Positions 799 through 9,698 of a stretch of DNA of 20,554 bases are shown piece by piece. The stretch's first letter is position 1. Each line of letters opens with the position of its first letter. The position numbers and the translations under genes were made by a program. Below the pieces are notes generated by a model. That model was not told the origin of the DNA. It saw nothing but the letters and a program-made list of their open reading frames with translations, and ran no database searches. This DNA is from a virus: positions 1 to 20,554 of IMG/VR virus record IMGVR_UViG_3300043587_000027. One strand, given 5' to 3'.

Positions 799-830
799 GG
801 TGGGGACTGGGTGGGGACTCAGTCCCCACC
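799..830. repeat. Left arm of mirrored TGGGGACT repeat cluster
   Basis: Contains TGGGGACT at 801-808 and 812-819 and its complement AGTCCCCA at 821-828. The inner pair forms a 25-bp odd palindrome (808-832) centred on C820 with perfect 12-bp arms. The whole 32-bp arm is the reverse complement of 931-962 with a single mismatch at the central base of the dyad. Spacing is 11 bp between the two direct octamers and 9 bp between the inverted ones, close to a helical turn, which fits cooperative protein binding. Confidence 0.75.
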
Positions 831-883
831 CACCGCGGGGACGGGGGACTGAGACGATTGAAGGAAGATGATAATGACCAGGT

Positions 884-896
884 GTTATGCGATAAC
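884..896. repeat. Palindrome GTTATGCGATAAC in AT-richer core
   Basis: Arms GTTAT and ATAAC flank GCG. It lies near the middle of the 100-bp core enclosed by the mirrored TGGGGACT clusters, in one of the few AT-richer stretches of the window. A binding site or part of an unwinding element are both possible. Confidence 0.4.
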
Positions 897-930
897 GACA
901 TATCGCTCCGAACGCGAGATTGCGCGCCCA

Positions 931-962
931 GGTGGGGACTCAGTCCCCACCCAGTCCCCACC
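931..962. repeat. Right arm of mirrored TGGGGACT repeat cluster
   Basis: Contains TGGGGACT at 933-940 and the complement AGTCCCCA at 942-949 and 953-960, mirror image of the left cluster. In addition 928-940 and 953-965 form a perfect 13-bp inverted repeat with a 12-base loop that begins one base after the stop codon of the primase/helicase gene. In leftward RNA this would be a strong hairpin, so a terminator or processing role is possible, though no U-tract follows. Confidence 0.75.
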
Positions 963-965
963 TGG

Positions 966-3239
966 CTAGGGCTTCCGCACCCCCGGCACGAAGCACCGTT
1001 TACCCTCGTTATCACCAAGCACGACCCACTGCTCCGCCACCGCGTGCGTGACTATGGCGTCGATGCTCTTGCGGGCATCACCGTTCAGTCGGTTGCGGAT
1101 CAGGCGCCACGGAACGGGCTGCTGCGTCTCGTTGTGCACCCACCGCGCCAGGCTGCGAGCTCTATCCTCGATCCAAGCGTCCTGCCTCGCTGAGGCGCGA
1201 AGGTGATCCTGTAATCCAGCAGCACGGGCCTGTTGCGTCGACACCTCGGTCAGCCCAGCAAGCACACGTCCTCGAGTTGCGAGGGAGTGTCGCTCAACTT
1301 CACCGGCGAGCTGCCAGTGGATGGGCTCAGGCTGCGCGAAACCGTCCATCAGGGCCATTACGCAGGTAGTGCGTAGCCGCAGGAGCATCATGTGGCCGTC
1401 AAGACGACCACCTCCCTGCGTCCTGCGCTGGTAGTCCCAGTCGATCACAGCCTGCTGCACGTCGAGCGGAAAGGTCATCACGCCGATCTGCTTGCCCTGC
1501 TCCGGTGGGTAGTACGGCAGGCCGATATCCGTGACCCTGTGCTGGTAGCCAGCGACCAGCTTCGGCCCCAGGTGGTCCAGCCCGAAGAACAGCAGCCGAC
1601 CTGGGAACCCCAGCGCAGCAGCGTCGCCCGTGAACAGGCTGCCTCCCACGCCGAACTGGATGCCGAGCACTGCGCACACCCGCACCAGGTCTGCGGGGAA
1701 CGCTTCCTCGCCAGCGGCCTTCGTGCCGCCCACCTTGCTGCCTCGTGCTCCCGACCAGGCGGTGAGCAGGTACGGCAGCATCGTCGAGCCCGAGCGATCG
1801 TTCTGCTGCGCCAGCGCCTTGCCCTCGTCGAACTCGATCTGCACGCCCCGTCGGTACAGCGGTGTGAGCTCCTCGTCCCCCCGGCTCTTGCGCTGCGGCA
1901 CCAGCGCCGCGGTGATCAGCCCCTCGCCGCTGCGCAGGTTGACGGCGTAGCGGAAGTCCTGGCTGTCGGTTGCCCCGCACAGCGCTCGAGCCATCGTCAT
2001 CGCCGACGTCTTGCCCGAGCCCGAGGGCCCGCACAGCGCCGAGTAGACGTTGAGCGGTGAGTCGGCCCCGCTGACCACCGCCTGCACCCGGATCGACGAC
2101 GGCAGCGACGTGGCGTACGTCGACAGCACCGCGCCGAGCACGGCCTCGGGGCAGGCCTGGTTCGAGTGCGCCGCATCGCGGATCGCCCCCAGCCACGGCC
2201 GAGCCTCCCAGAAGTCGTCGCTGATCCACCCCGTCGGCTCAGCCACCGAGAGATCAGCGGCCACCCGCGATGACGGCCCGCCGAAGCGGCGCAGGATCTC
2301 GACCCGCTCCGACGTCGAGGGCAGGTGGCCCAGCTGGTAGCAGCCGAGCACGTCGATGGTGTCGTAGGTCTGGCGCCCCACCGAGGCCGGGACCGGCGCG
2401 GCGTTGGAGCTGAACACGAACAGCCGCCCGGCCCGGTTGACCGTGGCGCTGTGGCCGTCGCGCGGGTCCTTGTCCGGGCGGGTCCAGTAGTTGTGCTCGG
2501 CGTCGCAGTGGCTGTAGGTCCAGCCCATGTGGCCGAGGACCTCCTCGATCGACGGCACCGCGACGCCGTCGATCCAGGCCTCGGTGTGCTCCATCCGAGA
2601 GAGTGAGACCCCGCCCGTCGGCACCGGAGAGCGTGGTGCCTCGGGCGGGGTCTCCGACGCTGCCACGGCGTCGAATGTGGAGATCACTGAGCAGATCGCT
2701 CGCCACTCCTCGGTGGTGGCCCAGGCGATTGTGTCGAAGCTGCCGCGGAGTTGTACCCAGGGTTGTCCACTGAGGTGTGTGGTTCCGTTGCTGGGGGCGG
2801 CCGCAACGTAGCCGCCGTGGCCGCGCGTCTCGACCAGGCACATCCCGCTCTCGTCCATCGCCAGCTTGGTGTTGCCCGGCTGGTCGTCGCCCTCGATGTG
2901 CACGGCGACGTGGAAGCCGCCGCCCGGCGTCTCGACGAGGTAGCCGTCGAGCCACGACTCGAAGACCGGGCCGAGCTCACCGAGCCGGGTCCGAAGCTCC
3001 GGGATGTGCTCCATGAACCGGCCCTCGAAGTCGAGTACCTGCAGCCGCGTCGGCCCGCCGCAGGCGATGGCGAAGCCCTCGGCCCTGCTTGCCTCACGGC
3101 GCACCGTTAGCTCGTCTGGCTGGGCGTCGATGCGATCCCGCCAGGTGGTGATGGCCGGGCGCTTGTTGGCGCGCAGCGGGATGACGGACAGCCCAGCCCG
3201 GTGGGCTGCGAGCATTGCCGCCTCGATGGCGGCGGTCAT
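966..3239 (-). CDS. Primase-polymerase / helicase fusion protein
   Basis: Predicted 757-aa replication protein. Residues about 1-180 match bifunctional primase/polymerase (prim-pol) domains: GLSVIPL near the start, the metal-binding VLDFEG (D70, E72), TPGGGFHVAVH (H110, H114) and LVETRGHGGYVAAAPS (E137). A linker (about 230-315) has the Trp- and Gly-rich pattern seen between these domains in phage primases. Residues about 340-720 form a helicase-type ATPase module of the DUF3987 sort, with Walker A GPSGSGKT (404-411) and Walker B-like IEFDEG (468-473). It likely unwinds DNA and lays primers or extends them at the phage fork. The ATG at 3239-3237 overlaps the previous stop by one base (TGATG); a longer upstream frame exists but would run 90 bases into the neighbouring gene. 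Family membership is from motif recognition; polymerase activity is inferred. Confidence 0.9.
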   Translation of the reverse strand: MTAAIEAAMLAAHRAGLSVIPLRANKRPAITTWRDRIDAQPDELTVRREASRAEGFAIACGGPTRLQVLDFEGRFMEHIPELRTRLGELGPVFESWLDGYLVETPGGGFHVAVHIEGDDQPGNTKLAMDESGMCLVETRGHGGYVAAAPSNGTTHLSGQPWVQLRGSFDTIAWATTEEWRAICSVISTFDAVAASETPPEAPRSPVPTGGVSLSRMEHTEAWIDGVAVPSIEEVLGHMGWTYSHCDAEHNYWTRPDKDPRDGHSATVNRAGRLFVFSSNAAPVPASVGRQTYDTIDVLGCYQLGHLPSTSERVEILRRFGGPSSRVAADLSVAEPTGWISDDFWEARPWLGAIRDAAHSNQACPEAVLGAVLSTYATSLPSSIRVQAVVSGADSPLNVYSALCGPSGSGKTSAMTMARALCGATDSQDFRYAVNLRSGEGLITAALVPQRKSRGDEELTPLYRRGVQIEFDEGKALAQQNDRSGSTMLPYLLTAWSGARGSKVGGTKAAGEEAFPADLVRVCAVLGIQFGVGGSLFTGDAAALGFPGRLLFFGLDHLGPKLVAGYQHRVTDIGLPYYPPEQGKQIGVMTFPLDVQQAVIDWDYQRRTQGGGRLDGHMMLLRLRTTCVMALMDGFAQPEPIHWQLAGEVERHSLATRGRVLAGLTEVSTQQARAAGLQDHLRASARQDAWIEDRARSLARWVHNETQQPVPWRLIRNRLNGDARKSIDAIVTHAVAEQWVVLGDNEGKRCFVPGVRKP

Positions 3240-3535
3240 CACAGCATCTGCTGTGCGAGGTCGCACTCCACGCAGCGGATCATCGAGGTGACCCCGGCGT
3301 TGGTGATGCGCGTTCCGACCTTGCCGCACAGCGCGATCGAGGCGTGTTCGGGCGTCGTCGCGGCGATGAGGTGGGCGTACGGGATCACGCCGCGCCGGTC
3401 GCGCAGGTAGGTGTAGCCGGGGGCGAGCGGCTCGACCAGCTGTTCCAGGCGTTCCGTGTGGCGCCGTGGCTTGCGCCCCGGCCCGTACTCGTCGGGGTCG
3501 AACAGCTGACCTTCGTGGTCGTCAAGCAGACTCAC
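3239..3535 (-). CDS. Small Cys-containing protein, possible zinc finger
   Basis: A 98-aa protein beginning with GTG at 3535-3533; a GAGGAGAG ribosome-binding site just upstream supports this start even though it overlaps the 3' end of the HNH gene by 14 bp. The C-terminal half has C70 and the pair C88-x2-C91 (RCVECD), with H64 nearby, which could bind one zinc ion. The N-terminal half is charged (HEGQLFDPDEYGPGRKPRR). It is translationally coupled to the primase/helicase gene, whose ATG overlaps its stop, suggesting a related role in replication. I do not recognise a named family. Confidence 0.75.
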   Translation of the reverse strand: MSLLDDHEGQLFDPDEYGPGRKPRRHTERLEQLVEPLAPGYTYLRDRRGVIPYAHLIAATTPEHASIALCGKVGTRITNAGVTSMIRCVECDLAQQML

Positions 3536-4173: not shown

Positions 4174-4656
4174 TCAGTTGTCGAACAGGTCCTTGCCCGA
4201 CACCGACGACGGTGCGGCGGGCTTCCACGACGCCGTGTACAGCTTGGGTGCGTTGAAGGCGCGGTTCTTCTTCACGCCCTCGCCGGTCCAGGCGATCGCC
4301 AGCTGGTCGCCGGGGTTGAGCCCCGAGCCCCCGCCGTCGCGCACCGCCTGGGCGATCGCGGGCTTCATCGCCTGGCCCTCACCGGAGGCGACCTCGTGGG
4401 CGCCGCCCTTGGCGAAGACCTGGCGGATGCCGTCGTCATCGTCGTTGGTGTGAAGCTGCGTCTGCAGCGTGACGACCAGCTGCATCCGCGGCGACCCGTC
4501 GGTCCAGAACAGCTTCTCGCCGGTATCTACATCGGTCTGCTGCCTGATCTCTGCCGAGACCACCTCGCCGATCACCACGTCGTTGAGGTGCTCGAACGGG
4601 AAGGCCTTGCCTCCCTGCTGCATGAGGAAGTCGTTGGCGTCCTTCTGAACTGTCAT
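4174..4656 (-). CDS. OB/SSB-like protein of actinophage recombination modules
   Basis: A 160-aa protein starting MTVQKDANDFLMQQGGKAFPF; the ATG overlaps the stop of the nuclease gene by four bases (ATGA) and follows an AGGAGC site. A longer frame starting at 4719 would lie in that gene and is not preferred. The pattern FLM..GGKAF, an EI-x-QQTD-x-DTG-x-x-L-x-W-x-DG-x-PR-x-QL-x-VTLQT core, and a later PKLYTASW closely recalls a conserved protein found beside Cas4-like nucleases in many actinophages. Its beta-rich core and acidic C-terminal tip (GKDLFDN) suggest an OB-fold single-strand DNA-binding protein. The family resemblance is from memory and the DNA-binding role is inference. Confidence 0.72.
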   Translation of the reverse strand: MTVQKDANDFLMQQGGKAFPFEHLNDVVIGEVVSAEIRQQTDVDTGEKLFWTDGSPRMQLVVTLQTQLHTNDDDDGIRQVFAKGGAHEVASGEGQAMKPAIAQAVRDGGGSGLNPGDQLAIAWTGEGVKKNRAFNAPKLYTASWKPAAPSSVSGKDLFDN

Positions 4657-5903
4657 GGCACATTGCTCCTGGGTTCGTTGTTCCTGGGTAACTGATCGGA
4701 GTGAAGACCCCGATCCCACTCCACCCGCGGGTCACCCGGCGGGAAGGGCAGGCTGAATGCACCCTCGATGGCATCGAGCAGGTCGAGCACCGCCGAGAGT
4801 TGGGCGGCGCTGACGCCGCCCTGGCGAAGGGTGGGGGTGTCGTCTGGCCAGCGACGAAGGAGAATGGCGCGGGCCTCGGCGACACCCCCGATGACATTGA
4901 TACGCGACTGGGCGAAGGAAGTCATCGCCTCGACCCACGCCTCGTGCTCGACGCCGTTGGGAATGTCTGGCTCGTGAGGCACGAAGTCCCCGAATGCCAG
5001 CTGCTCCATCGGGGTGGCCATCACCGCTACCTCGTCGGTCGGTGGCGGTGTGAAGCCGATGGTGAAGTCGTTGCGGCGACGCCAGCGGCGCACGTCGCGC
5101 ACGATCCGGGCGCCCTCGCGCCCGACCTGCATGTCGAGCCAGTGGAACTCGCAGCTGGCTCGACCGGCTGGCATGTGGACGAGCAGGGCGATGTCGGTCC
5201 GCATGTCAGCTGGGAGTGGTGAGCGCTCGTTGGTCTCGACGTCGTAGAACACGCTGTCGATGTACAGCGCCAGCTGGATGGCGAAACCTGGCAGCGAGTA
5301 GTCGAGGCGCTTGCCCGTCTTCAAGTCGCCGAGGATGTGCTGGCCGGGCAGGACCGGGGGGCAGCCCGCCACTTCCAGTTCGCGTGTCGCTCGGTAGATC
5401 CGGTCGGCGGTGCCCGCCGCTCGCCACTCGTCGTTGCATAGGTGGCACTCGATGAACTCGCTCACCAGCCCGGCGGCATCGAGCTGCATCAGGTAGGCGG
5501 CGATGTCGGCGTCGAATGGTGGCGGGGCCCGGAAGCCGTCGCCGCTCTCGACCCGCTCGGTCATGCGGTGCAGCGCCGTGCCGATGTCGGCAGCCTCCTC
5601 GCCGCGGCCGCGCTGGATCGCACGCTCGCGGCGTTCCTTGGCGCCTTCCTTGACGCCGAGGTTGGAAGCGACCATCGCCGCGATGGAGGGGTCGCAGGCC
5701 ACGCCCTCCATCGCTCGGTCGATCTTCCAGGTGACGAGGTTGGACTCGTCGTCGAGGTCCGAGCCCCAGCTCGACGGTCGGCTGTAGCGATCCCACTTCG
5801 TCGGGTCGTCGAGGCGGCGCACCATCGGAGCGCCGTTGGCCCGGCGGAAGTCCCGAGCTACGGGGTCGGCGCCGAACTCGTCGAGGCTGAGGCCCTGGCT
5901 CAT
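4653..5903 (-). CDS. Cas4/RecB-like PD-(D/E)XK nuclease
   Basis: A 416-aa protein with the ordered motifs of the PD-(D/E)XK exonuclease superfamily: H112 in ADIGTALHRMTE, D167 in AAGTADRIY, the D193-x-K195 pair in ILGDLKTGK, and Q210/Y214 in AIQLALYIDS. This is the arrangement of phage Cas4/RecB-type nucleases that resect DNA ends for recombination or help degrade host DNA. No obvious four-Cys iron-sulphur cluster set is present (C154, C157 and C181 occur, but not the usual C-terminal triplet), so it may not be a true Cas4. Start ATG overlaps the upstream stop by ATGA, and its own stop overlaps the SSB-like start, implying coupled synthesis of nuclease and partner. Confidence 0.88.
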   Translation of the reverse strand: MSQGLSLDEFGADPVARDFRRANGAPMVRRLDDPTKWDRYSRPSSWGSDLDDESNLVTWKIDRAMEGVACDPSIAAMVASNLGVKEGAKERRERAIQRGRGEEAADIGTALHRMTERVESGDGFRAPPPFDADIAAYLMQLDAAGLVSEFIECHLCNDEWRAAGTADRIYRATRELEVAGCPPVLPGQHILGDLKTGKRLDYSLPGFAIQLALYIDSVFYDVETNERSPLPADMRTDIALLVHMPAGRASCEFHWLDMQVGREGARIVRDVRRWRRRNDFTIGFTPPPTDEVAVMATPMEQLAFGDFVPHEPDIPNGVEHEAWVEAMTSFAQSRINVIGGVAEARAILLRRWPDDTPTLRQGGVSAAQLSAVLDLLDAIEGAFSLPFPPGDPRVEWDRGLHSDQLPRNNEPRSNVP

Positions 5904-6312: not shown

Positions 6313-6790
6313 CGAGCACCGCCTTGGTGATCGAGGTGTGGCGCCCGTACTCGCAGATCAGCAGCGCCTCGGCGCGGTTGTGGTCCTTGACCCGGTTGAG
6401 CTGGTCGGCCACGGTCGGGAATAGTTCCTGCGCCCGCCACCGTGAGCGATTCTTGCGCTCGGTCTCGGAGAAGCCACCACCGAACAGCCCGAAGTAGCTC
6501 TGCCACTGGCGGGGCAGAATCCACACCAGCGGCACCTTGGCCAGGTGCACGGCGGTGCGGATGGCGCCGTTCGAGTCACCCTGGCTGTAGGCAGCCTTGG
6601 AGCCGTTCTTGGGCATGGCGTGGGTGCGCTCGACGTTGACCTCGTCGGGCTGCCACTGCATCAGCAGGCGGTAGAGCAGCGCTCCGTCGATGCCGTCGGC
6701 ACCGCGGGGCATGTCGTAGACCGAGGCCTCGCCGTGATGGATCAGCGCAATGGCCCCGGTCACTCCGGGGTCGATCCCTACGATCGGCAT
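6305..6790 (-). CDS. RuvC-like Holliday junction resolvase
   Basis: A 161-aa protein, close to RuvC length. It has the RNase H-fold acidic set: D7 in VGIDPGVTGAIAL, E54 in VNVERTHAMP, and a C-terminal KDHNRAEALLICEYG with D136 and E141. This pattern defines RuvC-type resolvases, which cut four-way junctions so that branched replicating DNA can be packaged. The stretch QGDSNGAIRTAV and the WILPRQWQSYF motif are also typical of phage versions. Its ATG overlaps the stop of the upstream ribbon-helix-helix gene by one base (TAATG). It joins the nuclease and SSB-like protein as a recombination set. Confidence 0.9.
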   Translation of the reverse strand: MPIVGIDPGVTGAIALIHHGEASVYDMPRGADGIDGALLYRLLMQWQPDEVNVERTHAMPKNGSKAAYSQGDSNGAIRTAVHLAKVPLVWILPRQWQSYFGLFGGGFSETERKNRSRWRAQELFPTVADQLNRVKDHNRAEALLICEYGRHTSITKAVLDG

Positions 6791-6957
6791 TACGACAGGT
6801 CCACGCCAGCGGCGAGCAGCTTCTCGAGGAGGAACTGGTTGACCGAGACGCTCTCGGCGTCGGCCAGGTCTCGCAGGTGGTCGCGCTGGCGGAAGCTGAT
6901 TCGCAGGGGCACGACGACCTTGACGTCCTCGGCTTCGGTGATGGGTTCTGGTCGCAT
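6790..6957 (-). CDS. Small ribbon-helix-helix-like DNA-binding protein
   Basis: A 55-aa protein from ATG at 6957-6955: a short acidic lead, then VKVVVPLRISFRQRDHLRDL and a helix pair ending SVNQFLLEKLLAAGVDL. A basic beta strand followed by two helices resembles the Arc/CopG/MetJ fold. It is first in the leftward operon and next to the divergent intergenic region, so it may autoregulate by binding the palindrome at 7000-7017; this is inference. The Shine-Dalgarno site is weak. An in-frame GTG at 7017 would add 20 residues but would place the palindrome inside the gene, so I prefer the shorter form. Confidence 0.7.
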   Translation of the reverse strand: MRPEPITEAEDVKVVVPLRISFRQRDHLRDLADAESVSVNQFLLEKLLAAGVDLS

Positions 6958-7054
6958 GTCTTCATGGTAGCAGTATTGCACTGTGCTGTCTAGCATAGAG
7001 AACGTGAACACGTTCACATACAGGACTGCCTAGGGCTGCTACATTCTCGCCGCA
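6958..7054. promoter_or_regulatory. Divergent control region between early and late genes
   Basis: Leftward and rightward genes start on either side of these 97 bases, so promoters for both arms are expected. For the rightward side TACATT at 7040-7045 is a possible -10 box about 10 nt before the GTG start, implying a nearly leaderless message. For the leftward side AATACT (within TGCAATACT, minus strand, around 6978-6972) is a weak candidate. No convincing -35 boxes are paired at 17 bp. The palindrome at 7000-7017 lies between. Confidence 0.55.
7000..7017. promoter_or_regulatory. Operator-like palindrome in divergent region
   Basis: GTGAAC-AC-GTTCAC (7004-7017) is a perfect dyad, and an overlapping one, GAACGT-GAAC-ACGTTC (7000-7015), shares its bases. 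Position between divergent genes fits a repressor site that could control both arms. The nearby ribbon-helix-helix-like protein is the obvious candidate binder. Confidence 0.5.
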
Positions 7055-7501
7055 GTGAAGCGCTTGATGGCACTGGCGGCTGGCCTGGTTATGGCCCTGA
7101 CAATCGCGGCTAGCGGGGCCTCGCCGGGGCAGGCTTGGACCTGCGAGCCCGACGACTACATCGAGAGTGAGTGCGGCCCGACCACGGTGGCGACGACCAC
7201 CACGACGGAGGTGACGACATCGACTTCCACTTCGACGTTGCCGAGCACCTCGACCACCTCGTCGAGTACATCCACGCTCCCGGTGTCGACAACGACTACC
7301 TCTACGACCCCATCCACTTCGTCCTCGTCCACCGTCGTGACGTCGACCAGCTCGACCACGATTGTCGCGACCACTGTGAGCACCCCCACGACCACGACTG
7401 TCGTGACTTCTGCGCCCACGACCACCACGACGACGACCCTGCCGCCGCCGTCCCCGGTGACGGTCGTGGTGAGGCCGTTCGTGCTGCCACTGACCCGCTG
7501 A
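7055..7501 (+). CDS. Secreted Ser/Thr-rich mucin-like protein
   Basis: A 148-aa protein with a clear signal peptide: basic start MKRL, hydrophobic core ALAAGLVMALTIAA, and a likely cleavage near ASGA or GQA before residue 28. The GTG start is chosen because it supplies the positively charged n-region; no Shine-Dalgarno site is seen. C30 and C40 may form a disulphide. Residues 41-139 are about two-thirds Ser and Thr with runs such as TTTTTTTLPPP, typical of extended, possibly O-glycosylated stalks. The end (VVVRPFVLPLTR) is too short for a membrane anchor, and no lipobox or LPXTG is present. A secreted stalk as first gene of the late operon is unusual; surface modification, superinfection exclusion or a role in lysis are guesses. 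Confidence 0.8.
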   Translation: MKRLMALAAGLVMALTIAASGASPGQAWTCEPDDYIESECGPTTVATTTTTEVTTSTSTSTLPSTSTTSSSTSTLPVSTTTTSTTPSTSSSSTVVTSTSSTTIVATTVSTPTTTTVVTSAPTTTTTTTLPPPSPVTVVVRPFVLPLTR

Positions 7502-7930: not shown

Positions 7931-8085
7931 GCGGGCGTACCGGGTTCCAGCCGCGCAACACGCCAGCCGAGCGCCGGGCCTTCTTCGACCTGCAGCGCAA
8001 GAATCGCACCCTCGAGGAGCGCCTGGCGGCGGTCGAGGAACAACTTCTCGATCACGAGGAGCGCATCGAAGTCCTCGAGCCGTGA
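7927..8085 (+). CDS. 52-aa coiled-coil protein between terminase genes
   Basis: A short frame from GTG (7927) to TGA (8083-8085) encodes MSGRTGFQPRNTPAERRAFF followed by a heptad-patterned acidic/basic helix (RKNRTLEERLAAVEEQLLDH) ending IEVLEP. It overlaps the small terminase stop by GTGA and the large terminase start by GTGA, so it bridges the two exactly with no spare bases. This packing and the strong coiled coil make it very likely real though it is too short for many gene callers. It may link terminase subunits or regulate assembly; no family recognised. Confidence 0.8.
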   Translation: MSGRTGFQPRNTPAERRAFFDLQRKNRTLEERLAAVEEQLLDHEERIEVLEP

Positions 8086-9698
8086 GTGATGGCTACACAC
8101 TCGAGGAGCTCCTGCAGGAGCGCGAGTGGCGCAAGATCGCACCGCCGTGGAAGGTGAGCGACGACGAGAAGTTGGAAGCCTTCCGCTACTTCTGCTCGAC
8201 CTACTGGTGGATCAGGCACCCGGAGCGAGGGCGCATCCACTTCGAGCTGTTCGACGCCCAGATCGAGGCGGTTTACCTGTGGCTGCAGGAGCGCTACACG
8301 GTCAGCCTCAAGGCCCGCCAGATCGGCTTCTCCACCTTGATCTCCACCTTCTGCTTCTGGCTCACGTACTTCTATCCCGACCGCGCCATCGTGATGTTGT
8401 CCAAGACCGAGCGCGACGCGGTGAAGCTGCTCGACAAGGCGAAGTACGGAGCCCGCTTCCTGCCGCCGTGGATCAAGTACCGCGGCCCGGTGGTCTCGGT
8501 CAACCAGACGCGCATGGGGATGAGCAACGAGAGCTACATCGAGTCGCTCCCGTCGGCGAGTGACCCCGCTCGTGGCGAGACCGTCTACACCGTGGTCGTC
8601 GACGAGCTCGGCCTGCTGCCCAACTCGGACGAGGCGTGGGCTGCGATCGAGCCCATCGCTGACGTCGGCGGTCGCGTGATCATGCTCGGCACCGCCCAGG
8701 GTGAGGGCAACCTGTTCCACAAGCTGTGGGTCGGCAGCCAGAACCGCACCAACCGCTTCAAGGGCATCTTCTTCCCGTGGTGGTCGGGCGACCGCGACGA
8801 GGAGTGGTACGAGACGAAGCGCCGCGACCTGCCCGACTGGCAGCTGGCTCAGGAGTACCCGGCTGATCCCGATGAGGCGTTCCTGCGCTCGGGCCACCCG
8901 GTGTTCCACGTCGACACGCTGCGGGCGATGACGGCGGTGGACCCGGCGCGCGGTCGACTGGTCTCGGCGATCGAGGGCCGGTACTTCGAGGAGGAGCGCA
9001 ATGGCCCGCTGCGCGTGTGGCGAGAGCCCGAGGAGGGTGGCCGCTATGTCATTGGCGTGGACGTTGCCGAGGGCCTCGAGCATGGCGACTACTCGGTGGC
9101 GTACGTCATCGACGCCAAGAGTCGTGACGTGGTGGCGTGCTTCCACGACCGGGTGGACGCCGATCTGCTCGGCACTGACGTCACCTTCAACCTTGGGCGT
9201 TGGTACAACAACGCACTGGTGGGGGTGGAGTCCAACAACCACGGGCTGACCACCAACAAGGCGCTGGCGCGGATGATGTACACGCCGCTGTATCGCTCGC
9301 GCAGCCAGACCAAGGCGCGCTCGGTGGCGAGTGAGGTGCTCGGCTGGCGCACCACGACGATCACCAAGCCGCTCGCCATCGACGAGCTCAACTCAGCGCT
9401 GCGCGAGAACCAGCTGCACTGCCACGACGCCGAGTGCATCACTGAGCTGCGATCGTTCGTGCGCGACGGCGACGGCAAGATGCACGGCACTCCCTGGGAC
9501 GACCGCGTGATGGCCTTGTCGATCGCCGTGCAGATGCTCAAGTACGTTTGGCTCCGCGAATATCAGCCGGTTCTCGAGCCGCCGCCTGGCACTTGGGGCT
9601 ATATGGAGCGCATGATGTTCGGCAAGCTCGACCGGGTCTCCGCCGTCCCGGTCGAGCGCGAACCGATCGGCCGACACTTCGTCAGGAGCACCAGATGA
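8082..9698 (+). CDS. terL: Terminase large subunit (packaging ATPase and nuclease)
   Basis: A 538-aa protein. The ATPase half has a variant Walker A, KARQIGFST (77-85), and Walker B VVVDEL (D174, E175), followed by a coupling-type motif MLGTAQGEG (201-209). The nuclease half is RNase H-like with D327 in VIGVDVAEG, E383 in VGVESNNHG and D473/D474 in PWDDRVMALSIA. These are the standard elements of the motor that pumps phage DNA into the prohead and cuts it. Start GTG at 8082 overlaps the previous stop by GTGA; its own stop overlaps the next ATG by ATGA. Length is normal for the family. Confidence 0.96.
   Translation: MSDGYTLEELLQEREWRKIAPPWKVSDDEKLEAFRYFCSTYWWIRHPERGRIHFELFDAQIEAVYLWLQERYTVSLKARQIGFSTLISTFCFWLTYFYPDRAIVMLSKTERDAVKLLDKAKYGARFLPPWIKYRGPVVSVNQTRMGMSNESYIESLPSASDPARGETVYTVVVDELGLLPNSDEAWAAIEPIADVGGRVIMLGTAQGEGNLFHKLWVGSQNRTNRFKGIFFPWWSGDRDEEWYETKRRDLPDWQLAQEYPADPDEAFLRSGHPVFHVDTLRAMTAVDPARGRLVSAIEGRYFEEERNGPLRVWREPEEGGRYVIGVDVAEGLEHGDYSVAYVIDAKSRDVVACFHDRVDADLLGTDVTFNLGRWYNNALVGVESNNHGLTTNKALARMMYTPLYRSRSQTKARSVASEVLGWRTTTITKPLAIDELNSALRENQLHCHDAECITELRSFVRDGDGKMHGTPWDDRVMALSIAVQMLKYVWLREYQPVLEPPPGTWGYMERMMFGKLDRVSAVPVEREPIGRHFVRSTR

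Follow-up and report, generated by a model that had tools for sequence, protein, structure and literature searches.

Mirrored iteron arrays directly 3' of PrimPol-DUF3987 primase-helicase genes as candidate replication origins of actinobacterial phages

Analysis of a complete IMG/VR virus record of 20,554 bp (hereafter the window, probably a fragment) recovered a repeat array at positions 799-962 which, judging from comparative sequence analysis, is very probably a replication origin recognized by the primase-helicase encoded upstream of it, with the octamers of the array acting as iterons bound by the C-terminal winged helix of that enzyme. Relatives of the virus keep the place and layout of the array but mostly have other repeat units, with every copy changed in concert, and among close relatives the unit covaries with the C-terminal region of the primase. 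These observations favor the suggestion of the first-pass annotation of the window that the element might be a phage origin with an iteron type of its own.

The octamer TGGGGACT occurs exactly six times in the window, against an expectation of 0.76 copies from shuffled sequences, with the largest count in 100 shuffles being four and none reaching six. The copies form a distal cluster at 799-830 (801+, 812+ and 821-, i.e. > > <) and a proximal cluster at 931-962 (933+, 942- and 953-, i.e. > < <), and the two 32-nt arms thus delimited, set 100 nt apart, are 97% complementary, making them the longest inverted repeat within 400 bp among those listed for the window. Counting and an inverted-repeat search therefore reproduced the six octamers, their orders and the near-complementary arms just as first described. 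Both arms contain a 21-bp palindrome, GGTGGGGACT-C-AGTCCCCACC, located at 810-830 in the distal cluster (GGTGGGGACTCAGTCCCCACC) and at 931-951 in the proximal one, along with one additional half-site 11 bp off. Two degenerate plus-strand copies of the octamer, which had escaped the first reading, adjoin the distal cluster at 836-843 (CGGGGACG, two mismatches) and 843-850 (GGGGGACT, one mismatch). The intervening core (831-930, minus strand) is a candidate melting region with an AT-richer middle: AT content is 60% at 861-900 versus 25-35% over the arms, which bears out the AT-richer core of about 100 bp noted earlier. In a scan covering the window, a 31-kb relative, 17- and 21-kb relative loci and the complete Gordonia phage Jojo24, the array locus was the sole site at which a 7-mer occurred at least six times within 260 bp with copies facing both ways.

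The array lies between the stop codon of the primase gene, from which it is separated by 3 bp, and the next minus-strand gene (start 438). As the primase gene, with its end at 966, is itself encoded on the minus strand, the element is downstream (3') of it, a clarification of the earlier statement that it is next to the primase/helicase gene, the adjacency itself being correct. The core carries the motif ACCTGGT (an instance of CWGGT) on the minus strand at 877-883, within the sequence CGATATGTCG..GCATAACACCTGGT common to the window and its relatives; immediately beyond it, at 884-896, is GTTATGCGATAAC, a partial palindrome in a conserved core block. The GCATAAC part of this palindrome is kept in the loci L003, L004 and L011, and the block around CGATATRTCG..GCATAACNCCWGGT is common to the window and the same three loci. 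A second copy of the CATAANNCCWGG motif is found on the minus strand at 512-523, upstream of the next gene, and the motif likewise precedes the gene following the element in L005 (8730-8785), L011 (8807) and L003 (8812), with exact matches absent elsewhere in the sequences scanned; this copy is perhaps a second binding site or a promoter element. The stretch that separates the element from the next gene also contains a C-rich low-complexity run (568-597), and relatives possess similar G-rich runs.

The presence of a GC-rich 21-bp palindrome in each cluster, directly after the primase stop codon, could alternatively be taken to mean that the clusters are terminator or attenuator hairpins of a minus-strand replication operon. 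We regard this as quite improbable: a scan of positions 400-1100 for a GC-rich hairpin followed by a T run recovered 0 sites on either strand, so that the element gains no support as a terminator only, and such hairpins would account neither for the second, mirrored cluster and the additional half-sites nor for the joint change of every copy. Moreover, the first cluster of the related locus L052 (cluster orders >>>>/><<<) consists of four direct copies, which are unable to form a local hairpin.

Relatives spanning a wide range of divergence were collected by searches with the primase, terminase and exonuclease. At least five copies of one 7-mer within 360 bp were present in 26 of the 34 primase 3' flanks examined, whereas control windows of the same loci had a mean of about 2.7 copies of one 7-mer. 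The arrays typically comprise two clusters flanking a core and start at or near the primase stop codon, with units in the arms spaced about 7-13 bp apart, and spacing and orientation are often unequal between the two clusters (e.g. L052, L082, L005 and L011). The octamer TGGGGACT itself is kept only in L003/L010 and L043/L052, the latter two having primases 57-60% identical to that of the window, while L005/L009 and L011/L012, with primases 59-64% identical to it, have GTGGGGGGAC and GTGGGGGAC, respectively. Hence, conservation of the octamer in relatives, which had been proposed as a check on the origin reading, is confined to these few loci, and it is the place and layout that are conserved instead; since each lineage has its own unit, non-conservation of the octamer is misleading as a refutation. 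More distant relatives display yet other units: GGGGTGTCA in L008, GGGGTCA in L060, TGTAGGACC in L071, GGGTGGAAG in L083, and GGGGAAGC, GGGGAACG, GGTGTGGCG and others elsewhere. Among the Gordonia phages, Jojo24, Santhid and Reyja have CCTGGAA, Tarzan and TinyDot CGTGGACA, and Francois and Nadeem AGCAAACC. The two-cluster plan further extends to the Tsukamurella phage TPA4 (unit CTCGGAAC), three M. abscessus prophages, M. smegmatis phages of the Weiservirinae, and two plasmids, from Streptomyces and Nonomuraea; in the Arthrobacter phage Peas the array is looser. Arrays were absent from the complete 3' flanks of the related primases of Firecracker, Shambre1 and Eileen, and fewer than five copies of any one 7-mer were found in the complete flank of L068 and the incomplete flanks of L004 and L058.

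The cores, too, have recurrent features. CWGGT is present on the primase strand in 20 of 28 cores, that of the window included, and 6 of 28 lineages have an exact DnaA box (TTATNCACA) within the array or next to it, although the match in L057 lies in the end of the coding sequence; the window has no exact DnaA box. The probabilities of 3e-10 and 1e-12 obtained for CWGGT and the DnaA boxes, respectively, are descriptive only, since both motifs were picked after inspection and the calculation used related sequences and hand-drawn core borders. In L071, L072, L076 and L008 sequences similar to CGAACACCTGTTCG are situated downstream of the array, and these resemble the actinobacterial LexA (Cheo) box. 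In Jojo24 the array is overlapped by gene 54 (L119, 36565-36795), annotated as a small 'hypothetical protein', and this gene may be an artefact of ORF calling across the candidate origin; similar small genes come after the primase in related phages.

The proposed initiator is a 787-aa protein encoded on the minus strand at 966-3329. Its Pfam matches are to PF09250 (Prim-Pol; E 3.4e-14) and, just below the cut-off, to PF13148 (DUF3987), with no others; its PHROG assignment is DNA polymerase/primase, and its best matches among solved structures are the primase-polymerase of the plasmid pRN1, followed by MCM AAA+ helicases. The AlphaFold2 model of its C-terminus shows helices followed by a beta hairpin (pLDDT 91 for a 90-aa fragment), so that residues about 721-787 (969-1169, minus strand) are predicted to form a winged helix, our proposed iteron reader. 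Foldseek searches with this fragment gave no match at E <= 0.001, the weak matches including several winged-helix or MarR-type structures, and a scan of GTDB genomes with the primase found no relative. The primase diverges much faster than TerL, the portal and the exonuclease: in the same relatives its identity to the window protein is 57-63%, versus 75-80% for the exonuclease (4653-5903) and 86-90% for the large terminase (8082-9698). In the Weiservirinae phages L107, L108 and L116-L118 the iteron arrays 3' of the primase go with a C-terminal sequence of a different type (YQRWA...LGRELSARFGV), implying that more than one reader domain may be used.

Natural swaps between close relatives point to this C-terminal domain as the likely iteron reader. 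The primases of Jojo24 and Tarzan are 92-100% identical in each 60-residue window except the last, where identity is 62%, and their units are CCTGGAA and CGTGGACA, respectively; Jojo24, Santhid and Reyja, which have one common unit, are 93-100% identical in this last window. Similarly, identity among the primases of the prophages prophiGD12-2, GD17-1 and GD05-1 is 91-100% until the last 60-120 residues are reached, and it drops to 35-68% over the last 60 and, in the pairs involving GD12-2, to 78% over the preceding 60; the three prophages have three different units. DNA alignment of the swap pairs revealed changes in both clusters around a core retained in part, together with conserved downstream sequence. 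In GD17-1 and GD05-1, the C-terminal window is 68% identical and the layout of the array is largely equal, with GGTGTCAGC replaced by GGTGGAGGC; their units are GGTG-TCA-GC and GGTG-GAG-GC, respectively. Within the group of the window itself, where most of the remaining primase is roughly 45-80% identical, the C-terminal window is 50% identical between the window and L052, which both have TGGGGACT, versus 28-30% between the window and L004, L005 and L011, which have other units. Among close relatives, primases with a common C-terminal domain have a common unit. Across all pairs, a Mantel-type test gave a partial r of only 0.11 between C-terminal and unit similarity (reached by 37 of 1000 permutations), compared with 0.17 between helicase and unit similarity; most pairs are too divergent to inform this correlation, and in view of its weakness the case rests on the close swaps. 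As the domain and the array are neighbors in the DNA, they could have been transferred together by recombination; that the two changed clusters flank a partly retained core makes a single simple exchange less probable.

The same comparisons bear on two other interpretations. Mirrored half-sites are typical of dimeric regulators, and the window encodes a protein with a weak ribbon-helix-helix match (6790-7017; PF16777, E 0.017); the element might accordingly be an operator or partition site, the alternatives named in the first-pass annotation, bound by this or another phage protein, such as ParB. This seems the least probable of the interpretations considered here, as tblastn searches found no homologue of the ribbon-helix-helix protein in the available sequence of the loci L004, L005, L007, L008, L011 and L052, the last of which has TGGGGACT itself, no ParA or ParB match was detected among the ten window proteins scanned, and it is the primase C-terminus that changes with the unit in the close swaps, in a comparison that covered primases. 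A different view, put forward for pRN1, is that the origin is read as a structure, with the arms forming a long stem or cruciform seen by the enzyme and the arm sequence free to vary. The 32-bp arms of the window do pair almost perfectly, and long-range complementary arms of 13-32 bp were present in all 22 of the 22 elements tested, so that a long stem is always possible; furthermore, the pRN1 origin has been described as a stem-loop, one stem mutant of which replicated only with symmetry restored (PMC4234260). Nevertheless, a stem has no need of arms built from repeated units about 7-13 bp apart, the unequal clusters of L052, L082, L005 and L011 would yield imperfect stems, and the unit tracks the C-terminal domain in the close swaps. 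Iterons are hence the better reading, and recognition of the arms as a stem is rather unlikely.

Under the preferred iteron reading, the C-terminal winged helix would bind each octamer unit, and the mirror-image clusters would direct the formation of two oppositely facing primase-helicase assemblies, one per cluster, flanking the AT-richer core. The core would then melt between the two assemblies, allowing the PrimPol domain to lay primers and forks to unwind in both directions. In this scheme, iteron binding and origin activity are conjectural, as are the oligomeric state of the enzyme, the melting step and the bidirectional course of replication. The cumulative GC skew, in which an inflection at the element had been anticipated, shows none there in the window, the 31-kb relative or the complete Jojo24; in the window, where it peaks at 7176, the skew tracks the orientation of the genes, and in Jojo24 it declines nearly continuously, so that it is a weak and uninformative test here. 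If correct, the proposal provides the PrimPol-DUF3987 primases of actinobacterial phages and of two plasmids with a common, recognizable candidate origin and ties it to a likely reader, and the close pairs, prophiGD17-1 and GD05-1 in particular, offer a ready natural experiment for reading the specificity code of such an initiator.

The closest known systems, besides pRN1, are the origins of phage satellites. In SaPIs, Rep reads iterons located directly 3' of its own gene through its C-terminal domain, apparently binding them as two hexamers (PMC7581432), and in Gram-negative PICIs the AT-rich region of the origin is invariably flanked by two sets of iterons (PMC6092414). The window shares with them both the two iteron sets around an AT-rich region and their location directly 3' of the replication gene. 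However, the satellite Rep proteins contain DUF927 or D5_N/Primase_Cterm helicases, unlike the PrimPol-DUF3987 protein of the window, and the window-type arrays occur in whole phages and two plasmids rather than in satellites. Additionally, window-type clusters frequently mirror each other, their units facing in opposite directions, and even phages with near-identical primases can have different units. In the open-access literature, rep genes followed by iterons around an AT-rich region are described for PICIs and SaPIs, and no description of this arrangement in actinobacteriophages was found. A further parallel is the alpha protein of phage P4, a primase-helicase whose winged-helix domain binds repeats at the origin (cited in PMC4234260). 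Its primase is of the TOPRIM type, as opposed to the Prim-Pol (AEP) domain of the window protein. The P4 ori and crr are separate sites and are not known to form two mirrored clusters at the 3' end of the gene.

For the question of iterons versus stem, the nearest published case is pRN1 of Sulfolobus, whose putative origin of about 100 nt lies directly 3' of a PrimPol-helicase-winged-helix gene and is required for replication; arm sequence varies between members of the pRN1 family, and the replication protein displayed no specific origin binding in vitro (PMC4234260). The two systems have in common the Prim-Pol domain (PF09250), a C-terminal winged helix (predicted in the window protein) and, 3' of the gene, an element whose arms are complementary, these being 32 nt long and separated by 100 nt in the window and 25 nt long and separated by 58 nt in pRN1. 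They differ in that the pRN1 element is archaeal, has been described as a stem-loop without iterons and has at most two units per arm. The helicase may be a further difference: that of pRN1 belongs to SF3, and the window protein has DUF3987 just below cut-off and structural matches to MCM AAA+ helicases. In BPP-1, used as a stand-in for BIP-1, which is cited in the pRN1 paper, no iteron array was found 3' of the primase. Inspection of the printed sequences of the published stem-loop origins (pRN1, pHEN7 and pRN2; L099, L111 and L112) shows arms with short direct repeats 9 bp apart: TGTCCA occurs twice in the pRN1 arms, 9 bp apart and mirrored, and the left arms of pHEN7 and pRN2 contain TGTCAC and GGAC, respectively, twice each. 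That the pRN1 arms might be mirrored iteron pairs is suggestive only. A broader generalization, which we advance tentatively and at somewhat less than even chances, is that PrimPol-helicase replicons, including those with the 'stem-loop' origins of the pRN1 type, follow one plan of mirrored iteron pairs around a melting core with a C-terminal winged-helix reader, and that phages switch specificity by exchanging this domain and all iterons around a retained core, possibly escaping incompatibility or cross-recognition. The arrays described here also make it testable whether mirrored iterons underlie the function of the pRN1 'stem-loop' origin, where no binding motif was detected.
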